Virus record (IMG/VR): IMGVR_UViG_3300037070_000783
Span: 1 to 31,742 of that record
Source: a virus
DNA: 31,742 bases
Direction: 5' to 3' (one strand)
Shown: piece after piece, positions 10,758 to 31,683 of the stretch
Position numbering within the stretch: the stretch's first letter is position 1
Layout: each line of letters begins with the position of its first letter
The notes under the pieces: generated by a model
What the model was told of the DNA's origin: nothing
The model's input: the letters and a program-made list of their open reading frames with translations, nothing else
Database searches by the model: none
Translations under genes and position numbers: made by a program

Positions 10758-10819
10758 GCTGGCAGCGCCACTTTCGGCAATGGATGACGGCAGACCCGCG
10801 GCTTGCGCTTGGGGCTCAT
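10754..10819 (-). CDS. 21-residue bridging ORF
   Basis: ATG 10819 overlaps the ERF-like stop as ATGA, and the stop overlaps the winged-helix start as ATGA. The peptide begins MSPKRKPRVCRHPLPK and is very basic. Both junctions are exact, so translation is plausible. A separate function cannot be shown. Confidence 0.4.
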   Translation of the reverse strand: MSPKRKPRVCRHPLPKVALPA

Positions 10820-11631
10820 AGCGCCAGCTCCATCGGCTCGGGATTCATGGGCGGCGCCTGCCGGTCCTCGAGTTCCTTGGTGGCCCAATAGGACCGCGCC
10901 TGCGCCTTGCCGCGGGCGTCGAGCGCCTTGTACTCGTCGGTGTCCCGCTGGGGTGGTTCGGCCGGAGGGGACGTGTCAGCGCCCACCTCCGGCCCATCGG
11001 CTGCGGCAGAAGTGCCCACAACGTCCGCAGCCTGTTCATCGGCGGCATCCTCTTCCTCTTGCCGCTCCACTTCTTCATTGAGTACCAGCTCCGCATCGGT
11101 GCCATGACTCGCCACGGCGGCGATCAGCGCGTCCAGCTGCGCCTCGGTGGCCTTGGTGCCGACCTTGATGCCAACGATGGCGGCGTAGGTCTGCAGCCCC
11201 TCGTTGCCGATCCCCTTCTCGGCGGCCAACTGCGCCAGGATGACCCGCTTGTCAGTCGGGGCGGAGGTTTGCGCCTCCCTGCTGCGAGAGTCCTCCGCCC
11301 CTGACTGCTTATTGGTCACTTCCTCGCGGGAAGCGACGCCGCGCTTGACCTCGAACCCGAGCGCCGCGATGGCGCGACCCCAAGCCGATGTCTCCGCGTT
11401 CTCAATCTCCGAGCCGCGGGTGAAGGTCGTCTTGCCGGGGATCTCCAGCGATGAGTGCCCGGTGCCGGGACGCGGGTCGTCCGGCGTGCGGTAGGCGTAT
11501 GCCTTGATGGTGACCCGCGACTCGGTGAGTTCGACGATCTCGGACTGTAACGAGCCCTCAGGATAGGACTCCATGAACGCCCCGATGCGGTCGGATACCG
11601 GCACATAGTCGTCCATATTGAAGCCTGGCAT
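10816..11631 (-). CDS. ERF-like single-strand annealing protein
   Basis: This is a 271-residue protein from ATG 11631, overlapping the HNH stop as TAATG. Residues about 10-105 resemble the ERF/Sak class of phage recombinases. SRVTIKAYAYRTPDDPRPGTG precedes TRGSEIENAETSAWGRAIAALGFEV, the same place where ERF proteins carry the ET-S-x-x-R/G-R-A-x-x-x-x-G signature. The C-terminal half holds a helical segment and an acidic low-complexity tail, common in annealing proteins for partner contacts. Together with the PD-(D/E)XK exonuclease two genes upstream it would form a recombination pair, as exo and bet do in lambda. Confidence 0.72.
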   Translation of the reverse strand: MPGFNMDDYVPVSDRIGAFMESYPEGSLQSEIVELTESRVTIKAYAYRTPDDPRPGTGHSSLEIPGKTTFTRGSEIENAETSAWGRAIAALGFEVKRGVASREEVTNKQSGAEDSRSREAQTSAPTDKRVILAQLAAEKGIGNEGLQTYAAIVGIKVGTKATEAQLDALIAAVASHGTDAELVLNEEVERQEEEDAADEQAADVVGTSAAADGPEVGADTSPPAEPPQRDTDEYKALDARGKAQARSYWATKELEDRQAPPMNPEPMELAL

Positions 11632-12053
11632 TACGCAATCCCTCTCGTCTGACGACGGCAGGTGGCGCACTCGATGGCGCCAGTTCGGCGGACGTAGGTA
11701 TTCTCAGCCGTTCGTTTGTGTCCACCCCTACAAACGCCGGTCGGCTCTCCTGCGATGTATTCCGCGTTGGTGCGTTGGCCCTTCTTGGCGTTGCAGGGCC
11801 GGCAGGTCAGCTGGATATTCCAAGTCGTATTCCATCCGCCACGGCTCAAAGGTGTCCCGTGGTCGAACTCAGTTGCAGGGGAGCCACAGAAAACGCATAT
11901 GCCTTCGCCCTGCTCCCACATCCAGAAGCCGTCCTCGAGCGTCAGCTTCCCAGGCACCATAGCCCGCGCCGCCCGCTTGTTGAGTTGCTGCATCCGGCCG
12001 AACATCAGCCATCGTTCAGGATGTCGGGCGGCATATTCGCGGCTTGGCATCAT
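11631..12053 (-). CDS. HNH endonuclease with C-terminal zinc finger
   Basis: This is a 140-residue protein starting by ATGA overlap with the exonuclease gene. The core is ICVFCGSPATEFDHGTPLSRG followed by NTTWNIQLTCRPCNAKKG. A second cysteine/histidine set follows (GVCRGGHKRTAENTYV, ECATCRRQ), a finger often found in homing-type endonucleases. It sits between the exonuclease and the annealing protein, so it may have inserted there and kept the overlaps. Activity is likely intact. Confidence 0.88.
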   Translation of the reverse strand: MMPSREYAARHPERWLMFGRMQQLNKRAARAMVPGKLTLEDGFWMWEQGEGICVFCGSPATEFDHGTPLSRGGWNTTWNIQLTCRPCNAKKGQRTNAEYIAGEPTGVCRGGHKRTAENTYVRRTGAIECATCRRQTRGIA

Positions 12054-13203: not shown

Positions 13204-13396
13204 TGCCGATGACCCACAGCAGGAATGGCACGCCCATGAACAGCGTCACCAGGACCACCAGCCCGAGCAGGATCTCCCCCGCATCCTTGAGGTGGTCGCT
13301 GGCGGTCACGCGGAACGGGACGGCCTGCGGACGGCGCACGTAGGTGCCCGACTGCAACTTGATGATGCGCTCGGAGTCCTCGCGGTAGCGCCTCAT
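13196..13396 (-). CDS. Small membrane protein of the early operon
   Basis: This is a 66-residue protein from ATG 13396 (ATGA overlap). The basic N-terminus (MRRYREDSERIIKL) is followed by a single transmembrane helix, ILLGLVVLVTLFMGVPFLLWV, near the end. Its place among the first early genes suggests an effect on the host membrane, such as superinfection exclusion, but nothing in the sequence proves this. The frame is open to 13465, but the coupled start is preferred. Confidence 0.65.
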   Translation of the reverse strand: MRRYREDSERIIKLQSGTYVRRPQAVPFRVTASDHLKDAGEILLGLVVLVTLFMGVPFLLWVIGNV

Positions 13397-13521
13397 CGCT
13401 CGACCTTCAGGTAGTCGGTGCGGTCCTGGTTGGGAAGCTTGCCTTCCTGCATGCGGCGAATCCACTCGGGCTGCTTGCGAGGCTTGGGCTTCTGATCCTT
13501 GAGGCGTTCGGTGAGAGTCAC
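13393..13521 (-). CDS. First early-operon gene, 42-residue basic protein
   Basis: The gene starts with GTG 13521 and has the best ribosome binding site of the region (AGGAGGA, about 8 bases upstream). The protein begins VTLTERLKDQKPKPRKQPEW and ends DRTDYLKVER. It is rich in lysine, proline and arginine and probably soluble. The strong site and its leading position suggest high early expression. Its stop overlaps the membrane-protein start as ATGA. The function is unknown. Confidence 0.65.
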   Translation of the reverse strand: MTLTERLKDQKPKPRKQPEWIRRMQEGKLPNQDRTDYLKVER

Positions 13522-13670
13522 GTATGATTCCTCCTGCTGAACCGTCCTGCCTCCCTGTCTGATCGTTGGAGCGGGGCGGTTCGGTGTTATGTAGGCGGAG
13601 CGCCTATCGGAGTGGACGGGGTGGAATCTCTCTCGGCTGACATAAGCCGTAGGCCGTAGCGGCTCAGGCG
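13522..13670 (-). promoter_or_regulatory. Leader region of the early operon
   Basis: This stretch lies between the 40-residue ORF and the first strong ribosome binding site of the early operon (13529-13535). It is rich in short hairpins, including CGGCT/AGCCG (13634-13638 with 13645-13649) and GCCG/CGGC (13653-13663), and carries the left arm of the long inverted repeat. An 18-codon ORF (13587-13643, starting MSAERDSTPSTPIG) is present but has no clear ribosome binding site. No confident -35/-10 pair is seen. An early promoter is expected here from layout. Confidence 0.3.
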
Positions 13671-13807
13671 TTAGTCAGGCGCCCTATTGCCTTCGGTCCC
13701 ATCCCATCGCGGCTTCCACAAGGGGCGGTAGTTCCGCCAGAGCCGACCCATGACAGGCCGGGGTAACGGTCCGATCTCCTTGGCTGGCCTCACTCCGATA
13801 GGCACTC
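13598..13807. repeat. Long inverted repeat enclosing a structured segment
   Basis: GCCTATCGGAGTG at 13602-13614 is the exact reverse complement of 13791-13803. With one mismatch the match extends to 17 positions (13598-13614 with 13791-13807). The enclosed 176 bases contain several smaller stems: GTGGAA/TTCCAC, GGCGG/CCGCC at 13724-13738, and AGGCC/GGCCT at 13755-13790. The arrangement could be a closing stem of a structured RNA on either strand, or a pair of inverted protein-binding sites. Confidence 0.6.
13671..13793 (-). CDS. 40-residue tryptophan-rich ORF
   Basis: GTG 13793 overlaps the stop of an 8-codon ORF (13790-13816) as GTGA. That ORF itself starts by ATGA overlap with the HTH gene, so a translational relay runs from the HTH gene into this ORF. 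The product contains KEIGPLPRPVMGRLWRNYR and LWKPRWDGTEGNR, basic with three Trp. Codon third positions are mostly G or C, as in the neighbouring genes. The ORF lies inside the inverted repeat. It is either a small DNA- or RNA-binding peptide or a leader. The family is unknown. Confidence 0.4.
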   Translation of the reverse strand: MRPAKEIGPLPRPVMGRLWRNYRPLWKPRWDGTEGNRAPD

Positions 13808-13812
13808 TCCCT

Positions 13813-14004
13813 TCATGCCGGTATCTTCTCCGGCGGTTGTGACAGCTCGGCTGTCTCGATGCGCTCGCGCCAGTAGTTGATCGTATTGCGGGTCACGCCC
13901 AAGATGCGGGCGGCGTGGACCGGGGAGCCGTCTGCCAGCTCGAGGGCGGCGGCCACCTTGGCGGCGGTCAGGCCGACCTTCTTGGGGGGTCTGCGGTTGG
14001 TCAT
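13813..14004 (-). CDS. Small helix-turn-helix DNA-binding protein
   Basis: This is a 63-residue protein from ATG 14004. The N-terminus is basic (MTNRRPPKKVGLTAAKVAAA) and is followed by GSPVHAARILGVTRNTINYW, a Fis/homeodomain-like helix-turn-helix. There is no ribosome binding site, but a promoter is spaced so that transcription would begin at the ATG (leaderless). An upstream TTG at 14040 would overlap the promoter and is rejected. Direct repeats at its start suggest self-regulation. It stands alone between the late and early operons and is a good candidate for the switch regulator. Confidence 0.78.
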   Translation of the reverse strand: MTNRRPPKKVGLTAAKVAAALELADGSPVHAARILGVTRNTINYWRERIETAELSQPPEKIPA

Positions 14005-14032
14005 GTACAAGAAGGTACGCCGATGTACAAGA
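14003..14032 (-). repeat. Paired TCTTGTACAT repeats, likely operator
   Basis: On the minus strand TCTTGTACAT occurs at 14032-14023 and again at 14012-14003, exactly 20 bases apart (about two helical turns). Each holds the palindrome TGTACA. One copy lies in the promoter spacer, the other covers the transcription and translation start of the HTH gene. This is the layout expected of an autorepressor operator. Confidence 0.6.
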
Positions 14033-14040
14033 CCTGTCAA
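14012..14040 (-). promoter_or_regulatory. Promoter for the HTH gene (leaderless)
   Basis: A perfect -35 TTGACA (14040-14035), a 17-base spacer and a -10-like TACCTT (14017-14012, matching TATAAT at three of six positions) are followed 7 bases later by the ATG at 14004. Transcription would therefore start at or next to the start codon. The promoter lies directly after the late-operon terminator. Confidence 0.6.
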
Positions 14041-14044
14041 TAGG

Positions 14045-14073
14045 CAAAACGAAACGCCGCCCCGAAGGGCGGC
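14045..14073 (-). terminator. Intrinsic terminator of the structural operon
   Basis: On the minus strand GCCGCCC-TTCG-GGGCGGC (14073-14056) is a perfect 7 bp stem with a stable UUCG loop, followed by GTTTCGTTTT. It lies 22 bases past the last tail gene (stop 14095) and just before the HTH promoter, so it should separate the two transcripts. Confidence 0.85.
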
Positions 14074-14094
14074 AGGATCGCGGGACGGATGCGG

Positions 14095-14286
14095 CTACTC
14101 GGGATCTTTGAGCAGCAAGGCCGGACTCTCGCCATCATCCACGCCGGTCACCGTGGTCGGGTCAATCCCCAGGCCCCACGCCAGCCCGGCCATGATGCCC
14201 GCCGCCTCCGCGTCGGCCTTGTCGCGGATGGCGAGCAACGCCTTGAGCCGCTCCGCGGCGGCGCGCGGGATGGGCGCGTAGCTCAT
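14095..14286 (-). CDS. Small protein at the end of the tail operon
   Basis: This is a 63-residue protein from ATG 14286 (ATGA overlap with the tail gene). It starts MSYAPIPRAAAERLKALLAI and is helical in the first half, with an acidic tail (DDGESPALLLKDPE). The longer frame to 14430 overlaps a tail gene and is rejected. It is possibly a tail accessory or chaperone protein. No family is recognised. Confidence 0.6.
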   Translation of the reverse strand: MSYAPIPRAAAERLKALLAIRDKADAEAAGIMAGLAWGLGIDPTTVTGVDDGESPALLLKDPE

Positions 14287-15293
14287 ACCAGCGTCACCGA
14301 GTACCAGGCGAACCCGACGCGGAAGTAGACCACCGGCGGGCTGGCGCCGATGTCGATGTACTCCGCGCCGGTGGGCGGGTTGGACAGCGGCGGGCCGATG
14401 CCGAACTCCACCCCGATGGGGATGGGCCACGGGTCAATCAGCAGCACCGGGTCGGAGCTGGCGTGGGTGATGCCGACCGGCACCTGGGCGACGGTGTAGT
14501 GCACGATGCCAACCGTCCCGGTCGCGGTTGGCCTGAAGCGGAGGCCGCTGTGATTGGCGGTCTGGAGTATCGCCTCGGTGTCGGTGGCGGTGGTCTGCCA
14601 CGCGGCCGGCTCCCCGTCCACCGTGCGCCACGCCTTGGCCGCCAGGCTGGTGGTGCCGGAGTCAGTAGCCTGGAAGGCAACGTTGATCTCATCCCCGACC
14701 GCCACCGTGCCGGGCGGCACCACGGCGGCAGCGAGGGCCGTGTTCACGCTAGTCACGTTCTTGGACAGGCGCAAACTCATGGCACCCGCTCCGTCAACGG
14801 TCAGGCGGGCGCGGTAGGAGTTCACGCTCAAGTCGGTCCCACCCCGCACGTAGTTGTCGTGGGTGGTGTCGAGCGTGTCAATCAGGCGGGCAATCTGCCG
14901 TACCTGAAGGTCGAGCAGCGGCTGCGCCATGACCAGGGCGGGCGTGGCCGACACGCCGGTGGTCACCACCTCGATGATGCCTTCGCCGCCCGTCACGCTG
15001 AAGTCTACGTCGGCGATGCTCTCGCTGCCGCGCCAGCGACTGATGCCGTCGTCGGCCCACTCCCACTCCCCGCCGGCTGGCACCTCGCGCTCGAACGTAT
15101 CCTCGGCGAACACGCCGAGCACGCCCGTCTGCCCACGATGCACGCTGAAGGTGGTGCCGCTGACCTGGTACACCACCATCTCTTCCTGGTTGACGACGAC
15201 GCGGAACGGCGGTTCGGGGAAGTCGGCGGCGCTGGTGACGCTGATGCTGCCATCGGTGACGGCCACACCCGCGCTAAGGGTGGTGGCGGTCAC
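14283..15293 (-). CDS. Distal tail protein (fibre or baseplate component)
   Basis: This is a 336-residue protein from GTG 15293, which overlaps the previous stop as GTGA; the frame's earlier ATG (15386) lies inside another gene. The N-terminus (TLSAGVAVTDGSISVTSAAD, then VVNQEEMVVYQVSGTTFSV and RGQTGV) resembles the small beta domain found in many phage tail and baseplate proteins. The rest is beta-rich and Thr/Val-rich. It is probably a fibre or receptor-facing protein. The exact role is unknown. Confidence 0.65.
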   Translation of the reverse strand: MTATTLSAGVAVTDGSISVTSAADFPEPPFRVVVNQEEMVVYQVSGTTFSVHRGQTGVLGVFAEDTFEREVPAGGEWEWADDGISRWRGSESIADVDFSVTGGEGIIEVVTTGVSATPALVMAQPLLDLQVRQIARLIDTLDTTHDNYVRGGTDLSVNSYRARLTVDGAGAMSLRLSKNVTSVNTALAAAVVPPGTVAVGDEINVAFQATDSGTTSLAAKAWRTVDGEPAAWQTTATDTEAILQTANHSGLRFRPTATGTVGIVHYTVAQVPVGITHASSDPVLLIDPWPIPIGVEFGIGPPLSNPPTGAEYIDIGASPPVVYFRVGFAWYSVTLV

Positions 15294-26486: not shown

Positions 26487-26735
26487 TTACTCCTTGCCCT
26501 TGAGGGCTGCGTTGGACAGGGCCTTGCGCTCGGGTTCGGCCTTGGCCTTGGGTTCCGCCTTGGCCTTCTCGGCGGGCGCCGGGCGCTTGAGCGTGATGGG
26601 GCCGAAGAACTGCGGCCACTTCTTGGCAGCGGGGTCGTTGGCGGCGAATAGGTCACCCTTGCGGGCTTCCACAATCTGGCCGTCGCACTCGCCGCTGAAG
26701 TTCTCCAGGGCTTGGATGATGTTGGGGTCGGCCAT
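26487..26735 (-). CDS. Small lysine-rich protein after the capsid gene
   Basis: This is an 82-residue protein with AGGAG about 8 bases before ATG 26735. The N-terminal half (MADPNIIQALENFSGECDGQ) may be a small beta fold. The C-terminal half alternates Ala, Lys, Glu and Pro (PAEKAKAEPKAKAEPERK), an extended charged tail. It lies downstream of the capsid terminator, perhaps to lower its expression relative to capsid. It may be a head decoration protein. Confidence 0.68.
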   Translation of the reverse strand: MADPNIIQALENFSGECDGQIVEARKGDLFAANDPAAKKWPQFFGPITLKRPAPAEKAKAEPKAKAEPERKALSNAALKGKE

Positions 26736-26750
26736 CGGGTGACTCCTATG

Positions 26751-26785
26751 AGGAAAGGGCGGCGGCGAGGGAACCGCCGCCGCCC
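26751..26785 (-). terminator. Hairpin terminator/attenuator after the capsid gene
   Basis: On the minus strand GGGCGGCGGCG (26785-26775), loop GTTCCCT, and CGCCGCCGCCC (26767-26757) form a perfect 11 bp stem followed by TTTCCTC. It lies 11 bases past the capsid stop. The T run is short, so it probably terminates only part of the transcripts, raising capsid mRNA over downstream genes. Confidence 0.7.
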
Positions 26786-26795
26786 CCTGGGGAAA

Positions 26796-28841
26796 CTACA
26801 GGATCGCGGCCTGTCGGCCACCGTCCGGGTTGATGACGCGGGCGGTGTTGCGCCAGAAGGCCATGACGCCGCGCTGCCCAGTCGGGAAGCCGGTCGTGGC
26901 GTCGAACATGTTGGGGATGACTTCGACCGACATGCCCAGCCGGTCGACGACCAGGTACGACTCGGGGTTCAGCAGCACGCCGAAGGTCGAGTCGGCGACG
27001 GTCGTGGTGAACGTCATCGACGGGCACTCGTAGACGGGGTAGCCGAGCAGCCGGAGGCCGGTGTTGCCACCGGGGTTGAGCTGCGGCGTCCCGACTGACG
27101 GGTAGTTAGTGCCGTTGAACAGCTGGCCTCCAACCGTCTCAAGGCCCTGGATGTACTGGATCGCGGCCCGCGACAGCAGCCACACCGCGTTGAAGCGGTG
27201 ACGGATCGGCAGCGCGTTGGCGACGTTGCGGATGTCCTGGATGACGAGCACGACCGTGGTGGCCGTGTCGACGCGGGTGAACACGTCCTTGAGGCCGGTC
27301 CCCTGCGGGAACACCGTCGCACCCGTGCCGAGCGTGAACTGGTTCTCCTCGTAGGTGTCCTTGGCCTCGGCGAACAGGCGGGACAGTTCCGAACCGAGGT
27401 CGGCCCGGTCCTGCATGATCTCGTAGGAGACGGTGGCGAAGCCCTGCGCGCGCTTCACGATCAGCTCCGGCTGGGCGAGCGTCGGCGCGCCCTCGGTGGT
27501 GGCCGCCGCTTCCAGCGCGTAGGCCACCGTCACCGCCGTGGACGTGACGCCACGCCAGGTATCGGTACCGGTGATCGTCTCGACGCGGGCCGCACCAGCG
27601 CGGTACGGGTTGATCGAAGTCCACGCGCCGATGTTGATGAAAGTCGGGTCGAACGCGAACGGCACGGCGAAGCCGCCGGTCGCATCCACGCCCACCGCCA
27701 TGGCGGCGCGCTCAAGGGCCAGGTCTTCCTCGGCCGTCAGGTTGCGGCCGCGGACGTACTGGCTGAAGGCCCGCTTGTAGAGCGGCGAGCCGGTGGCCAG
27801 CACGCGGCTGGAGATCTCCTTGTCGTCGGAGTCGTGGGTTTCGATCAGGTCCACGATGTGGTTCTTGACCGCCGGCTTGTCGGCCACGTCCGGCAGGTGG
27901 GTGATCTCGACCGCGCGCAGCGCGTTGTCGCGCACCTTCATGCCGTACTCGTCGCGCGAGCGCGACACGCGGCGGATGGCGTCGAGGTCGTAGATGTCGG
28001 CCTCGCTGGGCCGGCTGATGACGGCCGGCGCACTGTCGACCTTGCCTTCCTTGGCGAGCGTGCCGAGGAAGTCTTGTCGCTGCTTCCAGGCTGACTGGTC
28101 GGCGCGGTGCTTGGCCAGCTCGGCCTTGTCGGCCTCGAAGTGGCCTTCGGCCTCGGGCGGCATGACACCGGGGAACTCGGTCGCCTGACGGGTCAGGCTC
28201 TCTTCGAGTTCGTTTATCCGGTTCAGCCGATCCTCCGGGTTGGTGAACTGCTTCTCTTCGGTTGCCACTGGTGTACTCCTCTGAGCGACGGGCTCGTCAA
28301 CTGGCACCGCCGCTGGCGGTGGTGATTCGGGTTCCGCCCGGACGGCGGTGACTTGGGCGCCGGGATAGGCGCCGCGTTCTAGGACCGCCACGCGGCGGAT
28401 GTCGATGGCCGTGCGCTCGATGACGCCCTCGGGCGTCCGACGCTCACTGACCGGCATAAAGCTCGCCGACATGCTGGTCAGCACGCCGTCACGCGCGAGT
28501 TCGTACAGCTCGTCACCGGCTGCCGTGCGGGTGACCTTGAAGGCCATCAGGTGGCCGGCGTCGGTGACTTCGGAACTGATGCCACGGCCGACCAGCTTGC
28601 CGTCATGCTCGCTGGACTCCAGCTTGACCTGCGACGGGTCCAAGCCATCGGTGGCCCCGCGCAGGATTGACTCGCGGTAGGGTCGGCCGAGCACCCCGTG
28701 CGCGTCCCGGTCGGCCACTTCCTGCACCGCCCCGAAGGGGATGACCAGGCCTTCGATGATGCGGTCATCATCGCTGCCTTCGGTTGCGGCCCGAACGTGC
28801 AGCTCGGCCATGAAGTCGCGTCGCAGAAGTGGGTTGCTCAT
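26796..28841 (-). CDS. Fused prohead protease and HK97-type major capsid protein
   Basis: This is a 681-residue protein from ATG 28841 (ATGA overlap with portal). Residues about 1-170 are an HK97-family (U35) protease with SSEHDGKLVGRG (H79) and LTSMSASFMPV (serine at 123-127). Residues about 190-370 are a charged helical segment like the HK97 delta scaffold. From about 385 the HK97 capsid fold begins: VDATGGFAVPFAF, TWRGVTSTAVTVAYALEAAA, GFATVSYEIMQDRADLGSEL. The fusion would supply protease, scaffold and shell in one chain, with self-cleavage on maturation. Confidence 0.9.
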   Translation of the reverse strand: MSNPLLRRDFMAELHVRAATEGSDDDRIIEGLVIPFGAVQEVADRDAHGVLGRPYRESILRGATDGLDPSQVKLESSEHDGKLVGRGISSEVTDAGHLMAFKVTRTAAGDELYELARDGVLTSMSASFMPVSERRTPEGVIERTAIDIRRVAVLERGAYPGAQVTAVRAEPESPPPAAVPVDEPVAQRSTPVATEEKQFTNPEDRLNRINELEESLTRQATEFPGVMPPEAEGHFEADKAELAKHRADQSAWKQRQDFLGTLAKEGKVDSAPAVISRPSEADIYDLDAIRRVSRSRDEYGMKVRDNALRAVEITHLPDVADKPAVKNHIVDLIETHDSDDKEISSRVLATGSPLYKRAFSQYVRGRNLTAEEDLALERAAMAVGVDATGGFAVPFAFDPTFINIGAWTSINPYRAGAARVETITGTDTWRGVTSTAVTVAYALEAAATTEGAPTLAQPELIVKRAQGFATVSYEIMQDRADLGSELSRLFAEAKDTYEENQFTLGTGATVFPQGTGLKDVFTRVDTATTVVLVIQDIRNVANALPIRHRFNAVWLLSRAAIQYIQGLETVGGQLFNGTNYPSVGTPQLNPGGNTGLRLLGYPVYECPSMTFTTTVADSTFGVLLNPESYLVVDRLGMSVEVIPNMFDATTGFPTGQRGVMAFWRNTARVINPDGGRQAAIL

Positions 28842-30220
28842 CGGGCTGGTTCCTCCACGGGAATGGGTGACTTGCCATTGGTTGGTGCCGGGTTGGGGAT
28901 GGCTGGCTCGGTGCCGGGTTCTTGGAGCTGGACGGACAGCTGGCCGGTGTGCTTGAGCAGGGACAGGTCTTCGGCCTCGACCGCCTTGACCACGGAATCC
29001 GGCTCGAAGCCGCCGTCGATCAGCTGGCGGATGGTGCTGCCCTTGATCTGCTCGATCTCGGCCGCGTCCTTGCGGTCCTCACGCAGGAAGGGCACGTCGC
29101 GCGGGTCGTACCACAGCCGCGAACCGGCCGGGGCTGGGATGAGGGTCTGCATGGCGCCCGCGAAGTTGGCCCAGTACGGGTGCAGGAAGCCGTCAGCCAC
29201 CAGCCGCCGCGCGGCGGCGAAGTTGCCGGCGTTGAGGCTGGCACCCTGGAGTCCTTCGGACAGGCCGACGATGGCGGGATGGATGCGGGCGGCGGCGGCA
29301 ATGCGCGTTTCACCGGCGCCCTGCACCAGCTTGAAGTCCAGCTCGCGCATATCTTTGCCGATGACTTCGGCCGTGTCACCGGCCACCAAGTACAGGGTGC
29401 GGTAGGCGTTGGCCGCGCCGGTGTGGCCTTCTTCGATCATCTTCCACCACTCGTCGAAGTTGGCCTTGGACGGCGACGCGCCGCCACGGGTCACGACCAG
29501 GTTGGGGGTGGCGCCGTTCTCGAAGAACTTCAGTTTGTGGCTGTTGGCCGCCTGGTCGCCCATCAACTCGCGCACGATGGGCGTGACCCAACTCATGCCG
29601 CGATAGTGGGCCAGCGGGTCGGGGATGGGCTTGAAGTGTGCGAACTCGCCGCGCTGGTAGAGGCGCGGTGGCTTGCCGGACCGCTTGCCGCCGGGGTAGA
29701 ACACGATGCCCAGCACGTCGGCGTCGGGGTCGTCGGCGTCCATGTCGGGGTCGTCGAAGCTGCCCAGCAGGATCTCGACCCAATCGGGCTGGAGGCGGCG
29801 CAGCCAGCCGCGCTGCTGGACGACGTAGAAGTTGCCGGCCAGGTCGGCATCCACCAGCGCCCGGTTCAGCAGGTCGCTCGGCGCCGCGTTGGGCCATGGC
29901 TCCTCGAACGGGCGCAGCGCGCTGGTGCCGAACAGGTCGTCAGGCCGGCCGTTCCGCATACGCTGGAACTGGAAGCGGCCCTGCGCGAAGAACAGCATCC
30001 GGGCCTGGATGCAGGCGAACACGACGCCGTTGGACTTGTACGCCTGCTGCACGTAGCCGACAAAGTTGTGTTCGATGGCCTCCGTCTTCTCGCCGGGCAG
30101 GGTGGTGTTCAGGCCCAGCGGGTAGGAGTGGCCGTTGAAGTTGAACGAGTTGCCGGACAGCGCGAGGTCGTACCACGCCCGTGCCCTGAGCTGCTGCTTC
30201 TTGGCCTTCTTCATGCCCAT
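28838..30220 (-). CDS. Portal protein
   Basis: This is a 460-residue protein. Starts at 30220 and 30214 both fit; the latter overlaps the terminase stop as ATGA. The text LAHYRGMSWVTPIVRELMGD, FFENGATPNLVVTRG and AAARIHPAIVGLSEGLQGAS, then NFAAARRLVADGFLHPYW, follows the HK97/SPP1-type portal core. It forms the dodecameric DNA entry channel and binds the terminase. Neighbours on both sides support this. Confidence 0.9.
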   Translation of the reverse strand: MGMKKAKKQQLRARAWYDLALSGNSFNFNGHSYPLGLNTTLPGEKTEAIEHNFVGYVQQAYKSNGVVFACIQARMLFFAQGRFQFQRMRNGRPDDLFGTSALRPFEEPWPNAAPSDLLNRALVDADLAGNFYVVQQRGWLRRLQPDWVEILLGSFDDPDMDADDPDADVLGIVFYPGGKRSGKPPRLYQRGEFAHFKPIPDPLAHYRGMSWVTPIVRELMGDQAANSHKLKFFENGATPNLVVTRGGASPSKANFDEWWKMIEEGHTGAANAYRTLYLVAGDTAEVIGKDMRELDFKLVQGAGETRIAAAARIHPAIVGLSEGLQGASLNAGNFAAARRLVADGFLHPYWANFAGAMQTLIPAPAGSRLWYDPRDVPFLREDRKDAAEIEQIKGSTIRQLIDGGFEPDSVVKAVEAEDLSLLKHTGQLSVQLQEPGTEPAIPNPAPTNGKSPIPVEEPAR

Positions 30221-31683
30221 GCGGCGAAGTGCTCTCCTTGGGCTTCGGTGCGGATGGCGCGGTCAACGGCCAGCGCGAGCGCGATGCAGGCGTCAATCCG
30301 ACCGCGGGACTTGGACTTCTGAAGGGTGAAGCCGCGCTCGTTGAAGCGCGGCACGGCATTGAGCACGTGGGTGCGGAGGGTGTCGTCGCCGTCGTGGCGC
30401 AGCTCGCCCTGCTTGATGAGTCGCAACAGGTCGCCGCAGGCGGGTGTCATACGCTCCACGCTCTGCGGCACTTCTTCCAGGAGCAGCCCCTCGTCAGACA
30501 GCATCTTGGCCGGCACGTCGAAGAAGCGCGGGTCATAGCTGATGGCCTGCACGTCGTAGGCGCGGTCCAGTTCGCGCAGGTGCTCCATGACATCGGTCAC
30601 GTCGACCGACTCGGAGGTGGGAATCCAGACGCGGCTGGTGGCCCGTAGCAAGCCGGCCTCGTCCTTCTGCACCATGACCACGGCGGTCGAGTCGCGCTTG
30701 AGGCCCACGTCCACGCCGATCCACGTCGGCGCGCCGGCTACGAAGTCATACGGCTCCTGCAGCGCGTCCCACAGCACCCGCCCGTTGGGGCCGAGCCACG
30801 AATCCACGCCGTCATACCACTGGCCGAGGCGGAAGATCCGGAAGTGGCCTTCGGGCGTGATGCCGATGTCGGTGGCCAGCGCCGACTCGCGCAGGAAGCC
30901 GGCTGCGATGGCAGGGTTGGCCATGCGCCAGGTGGCCGGGTCGTTGATGTCGGCGTCCTCGGCCACCGTCCACTCGCGGTACACCAAGCCGGGTAGCACG
31001 TTGCCTTCCTTGACGGCGGCGCGGAGGTGAAACAGCGCGTTCTCGCGGTCCAGGCCGGGCGTGCCGACCGCCATCACCAGCGACCGCTCGCGCTTGCCGC
31101 CGGCCAGTCGCAGCGAGTCCCACGATTCCATGGGCTGGAAGCCGATCTCATCGAACAGGGAGAAGGAAGGGTCCAGCCCTTGGAGGCCGTCGGGGTCGTT
31201 GGAGATGGGGAACAACTCGCCGCCGTTGAACGGAGTCACCACTCGCGGGGTGGCGATGCCGGTGTAGATCAGCGACCGGGACAGCAGCTCCGGTTCCTTC
31301 TTGATGATGGCCACCGCCACGCCGTAGCAGGAGCGGATAGCCTGCCCCACCGTGGTCGCCACGATGGGCACCTGCGGTGCGCCGGTTTCGTCGTCGTCGA
31401 ACAGCGCCCAAGTGGCGAGCGCCCCGCCGAACGTGCTCTTGCCGTTGCCGCGGGGAGTGGCCAGCACGCTCAGGTCCACGTCGTCGGCCAGGGCTTCGGT
31501 CAGGAAGTCGCGCTGGAACGGTGCCAGCTTGAGCGGTGTCCCGTGACCCTTGCCCTTGGGTGGCCGGCAATAGGTTTCGATGAAGCGGATGGCGCGCTTG
31601 GCGCGGGACTTCTCGGGCCACGACTTCCACGGTCCGGGCGATGCGTCGGCGATGCGCTTGGAGGCGTTGCCTTGTGGGTTCAT
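30211..31683 (-). CDS. Terminase large subunit
   Basis: This is a 490-residue protein. Residues 74-84 (LATPRGNGKST) are the Walker A motif, SLFDEIGF (D178, E179) is Walker B with the catalytic glutamate, and VGTPG near 207 is the coupling motif. The C-terminal nuclease domain starts with WIGVDVGLKRDST (D325) and includes a later conserved Asp (RIDACIALALAVD). It pumps DNA into the procapsid and cuts the concatemer. No small subunit is seen in the window. Confidence 0.94.
   Translation of the reverse strand: MNPQGNASKRIADASPGPWKSWPEKSRAKRAIRFIETYCRPPKGKGHGTPLKLAPFQRDFLTEALADDVDLSVLATPRGNGKSTFGGALATWALFDDDETGAPQVPIVATTVGQAIRSCYGVAVAIIKKEPELLSRSLIYTGIATPRVVTPFNGGELFPISNDPDGLQGLDPSFSLFDEIGFQPMESWDSLRLAGGKRERSLVMAVGTPGLDRENALFHLRAAVKEGNVLPGLVYREWTVAEDADINDPATWRMANPAIAAGFLRESALATDIGITPEGHFRIFRLGQWYDGVDSWLGPNGRVLWDALQEPYDFVAGAPTWIGVDVGLKRDSTAVVMVQKDEAGLLRATSRVWIPTSESVDVTDVMEHLRELDRAYDVQAISYDPRFFDVPAKMLSDEGLLLEEVPQSVERMTPACGDLLRLIKQGELRHDGDDTLRTHVLNAVPRFNERGFTLQKSKSRGRIDACIALALAVDRAIRTEAQGEHFAAWA

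Follow-up and report, generated by a model that had tools for sequence, protein, structure and literature searches.

Phages such as T7 carry RNase III processing stems between their early genes, and bacteria harbour MITE-like elements, in which short noncoding DNA is flanked by inverted repeats. A superficial inspection of the literature returned nothing relevant to the element described below, to RNase III stems or to the MITE-like comparison. The DNA analysed here, referred to as the window, is the 31,742-base IMG/VR virus record IMGVR_UViG_3300037070_000783 (positions 1 to 31,742), the proteins of which were annotated with a PHROGs scan and Pfam. Nearly every gene lies on the minus strand. 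The structural module runs on that strand from the terminase gene (30211-31683) down to position 14095, and is followed by a gene coding for a small HTH protein, with which the early transcript probably opens. Downstream of the HTH gene comes a noncoding gap of 291 bases before the next gene of the early group, both genes being on the minus strand. The gap holds a long inverted repeat; the sequence-only reading was right to place this repeat between a regulator gene and the early operon. The features of the region are as follows.

14055-14074, minus strand: hairpin resembling an intrinsic terminator (terminator scan); it would end the structural-gene transcript, ahead of the early promoter candidate
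14012-14040, minus strand: candidate early promoter read from the sequence, with TTGACA (14040-14035), a 17-base spacer and a weak -10 region, TACCTT
13813-14004, minus strand: gene for the HTH protein of 63 residues; HTH_8 just over the Pfam cut-off, homologue in the related locus L059
13791-13816, minus strand: 5′ arm of the stem (core 13791-13807), overlapping the HTH stop codon (13813-13815)
13615-13790, minus strand: enclosed segment of 176 bases, with noncoding codon usage and structure at chance level
13589-13614, minus strand: 3′ arm of the stem (core 13598-13614)
13522-13588, minus strand: leader of 67 bases with a GC-rich hairpin, before the 42-residue ORF
13393-13521, minus strand: early ORF of 42 residues with a GTG start and GGAGG ahead of it
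10816-11670: gene for the early protein named p284, used as a query for relatives

The early genes beyond the gap include the 42-residue ORF, an ORF of 66 residues whose C-terminal stretch is hydrophobic and a 130-residue ORF; others code for an exonuclease, an HNH protein, a replication initiation protein, and ParB-like and PAPS-reductase-like proteins.

The early transcript probably begins a short way ahead of the HTH gene. The candidate promoter was not listed by the promoter scan because its -10 region is weak; TTGACA is nevertheless found directly 5′ of the HTH gene in the window and in two related loci, L059 and L053, in both of which the gene would be almost leaderless. Two copies of a CTTGTACAT box (14023-14031 and 14003-14011) lie 20 bases apart beside the promoter candidate. 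They may be operators, perhaps for autoregulation, and are more likely to act as such than the arms of the inverted repeat. On the plus strand, a promoter-like sequence (TTGAGG-18-TATGAT, 13499-13528) faces the gap and is antisense to the early leader.

The repeat itself is as the sequence-only reading had described it: 13 bp are perfect (13602-13614 and 13791-13803) and 17 bp match with one mismatch (13598-13614 and 13791-13807), enclosing 176 bases. When the arms are extended to 13589-13614 and 13791-13816, 22 of 26 positions match. A chance origin within so short a stretch had been judged improbable, and this held: when the 295-base stretch 13522-13816 was shuffled 400 times with its dinucleotides preserved, no shuffle reached the repeat's own stem score of 14, and among 2000 simulated stretches of 310 bases none gave a perfect arm of at least 13 bp. 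An eight-codon reading frame (13790-13816), starting at an ATGA that overlaps the HTH stop codon, spans the 5′ arm exactly; frames of such length are common by chance. An intrinsic terminator (a short hairpin plus a T run) was not found at the element, the scan of 13300-14400 showing only the hairpin at 14074-14055 and one overlapping it at 14064-14050.

Compared with shuffled sequences, the whole element folds well on both strands (z = -4.38 for the minus strand and -3.60 for the plus strand). Among 227 minus-strand stretches of 210 bases, 13598-13807 had the lowest z (-4.5), although its start was fitted to the element while the remaining 226 stretches lay on a fixed grid. The second-lowest value (-3.9) belonged to 26601-26810, also on the minus strand. 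In a modelled early transcript running from 14012 to 13400 on the minus strand, all 17 core pairs are predicted with a probability of at least 0.98; on the plus strand, 16 of the 17 reach at least 0.95. The duplex of the 26-base arms has a predicted energy of -39.7 kcal/mol on the minus strand versus -36.7 on the plus strand, with 23 of 26 positions paired and a core of 17 continuous pairs, one of them G-U. The G-U pair is the single mismatch of the core: at this place the plus strand has C-A, and the minus (coding) strand U-G. The predicted pairing thus weakly favours the minus strand. The whole 513-base transcript folds modestly better than its shuffles (z = -1.71).

The enclosed segment had been described as full of smaller stems. 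Folded alone, however, 13615-13790 does no better than shuffled sequence (z = +0.43 for the minus strand and -0.39 for the plus strand). Folding against shuffles on both strands, the check that had been proposed, is therefore positive for the whole element and negative for its interior, and since the interior stands at shuffle level the score of the whole comes entirely from the arms. No family of Rfam release 15 matched in the window at its gathering score, and the best match at the element (E-value 0.55) was a chance-level hit to an lncRNA family, under its gathering score. These results give no support to the suggestion of a discrete, structured RNA some 210 bases long, which was dropped as the leading reading because of the interior scores and the missing Rfam match. 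The 40-residue ORF, the GTG of which had been thought to be controlled by the repeat, does exist (minus strand, 13793 to 13671), but its codon usage is that of noncoding sequence: the 40/44-residue ORF scores about -0.16, versus +0.22 to +0.32 in the neighbouring genes. No properly spaced ribosome site was found ahead of it by eye. A coding role was rejected on the codon score and the absent ribosome site, and control of its start codon is unlikely since the ORF does not look coding.

Relatives of the early region proved rare. The terminase query retrieved 29 related viral loci, whose early regions, where searched, differ from that of the window; in 15 terminase-related records the HTH protein was found in none and the exonuclease in one, and the exonuclease used as a query gave no viral relative. 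A query with the p284 protein identified six more viral loci, L059 among them. The HTH homologue of L059 is 51% identical over 43 residues (E-value 7e-9), and the gene order is that of the window: last tail-module gene, TTGACA, HTH gene, small genes, p284. The L053 record has the 63- and 180-residue proteins and the exonuclease in common with the window. Its early region also opens with TTGACA and a small HTH gene, which is preceded by a repressor-like gene on the opposite strand, and its HTH protein is only 30% identical. A search with the HTH protein sequence itself gave no match. The HTH profile matched the L059 record alone among viral contigs, gave one weak match in 11 records (E-value 0.001, within a 264-residue frame) and matched none of 396 Actinomycetota genomes at an E-value of 1e-8. 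In the same 396 genomes, p284 was found once (1e-10) and relatives of the terminase in six (1e-30), two of them below 1e-150; the stretches beside these two (L080-L082) showed no convincing shared early gene. At 1e-150 the terminase was detected in one of 298 genomes of one order, a genome already among the matches of the 396-genome set.

The HTH stop codon and the start codon after it are 63 bases apart in L059 and L053, versus 291 in the window, and the inverted repeat is absent from this gap in both relatives. Their gaps contain leaders comparable to that of the window.

L059:4591-4653, plus strand: leader of 63 bases with a GC-rich hairpin
L053:9890-9952, minus strand: leader of 63 bases with a GC-rich hairpin

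The L059 and L053 leaders are clearly similar to each other (score 25, the best place in the L059 locus). Only the L053 leader stands out in folding (z = -2.71, with -1.22 for L059 and -0.51 for the window). When the 67-base leader of the window was compared with that of L059, one of 1000 shuffles scored equally high, and the leader ranked first of 6334 window positions by a margin of half a point; against the L053 leader it ranked 13th. The pattern of the leader hairpin was found in five stretches of viral contigs, two being the L053 and L059 records themselves; the other three look like chance, and two of them, L068 and L071, are of identical sequence. The window leader is probably homologous to those of L059 and L053, and the element is probably a lineage-specific extra sequence lying between the HTH stop codon and the old leader hairpin. 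Since the next gene of the window differs from that in L059 and L053, we can only infer that an insertion took place.

No homologue of the element was detected by megablast and blastn in phages, in plasmids, or by nhmmer searches with the gap against the related loci gathered, and the two-arm pattern (exact 12-bp arms at this spacing) was absent from viral contigs; the pairing consequently has no covariation support. A DNA search of the 15 terminase-related records gave 15 matches of 14-35 bases in seven of them, which were taken as chance. The window holds no second copy. Bacterial genomes yielded one exact two-arm match, in a Dietzia contig, of 12 bases per arm; the arms differ outside the 12-mer and the interior reads N. 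In the Dietzia contig, the arms at L066:1950-2180 are long and perfect, contain CCTATCGGAGTG and flank the interior of N.

Of the readings considered, the one given most weight, with a probability of roughly 35%, is that the arms pair with each other over a long range in the early mRNA of the minus strand, the resulting stem being an intercistronic element that separates the regulator from the early operon. The early transcript would run from the HTH gene through the element and the leader hairpin to the early genes. The stem, of 17 bp or up to 26 with mismatches, would begin at the HTH stop codon and loop out 176 unremarkable bases; as double-stranded RNA it could be cut by a host enzyme of the RNase III type, the presence of which is assumed. 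Alternatively, it might act as a barrier, stabilizing the regulator message and uncoupling it from the early-gene message. What was found is indeed a nearly continuous predicted RNA stem of about 20 bp between cistrons, as expected for a substrate of RNase III-type enzymes. This reading is favoured by a stem score above that of all 400 gap shuffles, by the lowest z of the 227 stretches, by the near-certain predicted pairing of the core with its mismatch becoming G-U on the minus strand, by the position of the arms in noncoding sequence between two genes of the same direction, and by the TTGACA that L059 and L053, like the window, have immediately ahead of the HTH gene. It is weakened by the lack of homologues, by the number of comparable stems expected by chance (considered below), by a plus strand that pairs nearly as well, by the modest z of the 513-base transcript, and by the fact that L059 and L053 manage without the element. 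A ribosome ending the HTH gene, or reading the eight-codon frame, would keep the stem open, so that HTH translation could influence it. That ribosomes leaving the HTH gene act as a switch, deciding whether the stem closes and thus whether the early-operon message is processed or passed on, is a far-fetched extension of this idea.

Nearly as credible, though still doubtful, is that the repeat is simply the best fortuitous one of a GC-rich 32-kb genome, functionless and fallen in a noncoding gap. It is the best stem of the window, and about 0.4 stems of its score are expected per window (mean of eight second-order Markov simulations); a second perfect 13-bp repeat (4894/5137) lies within coding sequence. 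In 471 kb of partly overlapping viral loci, about 4.3 stems scoring at least 14 are expected and 14 rows were listed, some stems being counted repeatedly from overlapping or near-identical loci. Given these expectations, the significance of the repeat rests on its noncoding location. An unstructured interior and the absence from L059 and L053 also suit a chance origin. The shuffles of the gap itself speak against it, however, as does the expectation of only about 0.03 such stems per window in noncoding sequence, obtained by multiplication from a noncoding total of about 2.4 kb (rough gene map); moreover, a compact phage nonetheless retains 224 noncoding bases here. Other strong stems were noted in the related loci. 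L061:3477-3584 is a 108-base rod-like hairpin, its outer arms perfect over 14 bp and its stem score 21 (no simulation reached 18 or more); it is located in noncoding sequence that has the last tail-module gene on one side and a promoter-like site of the early region on the other. Further stems lie at L053:6336-6433 (score 15), L053:3925-4037 (17) and L024:2030-2103 (16), the first and last of which appear to overlie the first codons of genes.

Less probable is a degenerate, non-autonomous MITE-like element, inserted after the HTH stop codon, with the arms as terminal inverted repeats of about 21-26 bp around noncoding filler. The shorter HTH-to-next-gene gaps of the two relatives agree with this, as does the similarity of the 67 bases left without the element to the L059 leader (first rank, narrow margin); the interior is neither coding nor structured, and inverted repeats are present at the termini. 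No target-site duplication was found by eye at several candidate ends, however, and the copy searches returned only the Dietzia look-alike. Somewhat less probable still, two inverted DNA-binding sites for a regulator might loop the DNA across about 190 bp: the arms offer two identical 13-bp sites in opposite orientation within a regulatory gap, but they hold no copy of the CTTGTACAT boxes, no other close copy exists (12 window matches with up to three mismatches, both arms included, versus 26 expected), and the scan found no promoter-like site between them. It is also unlikely that the stem closes a discrete noncoding RNA, 210-230 bases long, on either strand, for although the whole element folds well and the plus-strand promoter-like site at 13499-13528 points into it, the interior scores, the missing Rfam match and the lack of a homologue argue against it.

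Overall, the inverted repeat is strong, spans a long range and has no known relatives; it is likely either a modest cis-acting intercistronic stem or a lineage-specific insertion. If functional, it would represent a cis-acting RNA stem dividing the regulator from the early operon in a poorly known group of soil phages, perhaps phages of Actinomycetota; on present evidence it serves mostly as a caution, a strong folding score for a whole element having come from two arms alone.

With MITE-like elements it shares noncoding DNA bounded by inverted repeats and missing at the corresponding site of two relatives, but it differs from them in having no target duplication, no further copies and no known transposase with these ends. 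The leader hairpin of the window, L059 and L053 lies in the same gap and would belong to the same early transcript; at about 40 bases it is short, and its place is downstream of the element. Unlike the inverted repeat, this hairpin is also found in relatives. Unlike the stems of T7-type phages, the predicted stem is a long-range one with a 176-base loop and an assumed host enzyme; like them, it would be a duplex of about 20 bp lying between cistrons of a polycistronic early mRNA.
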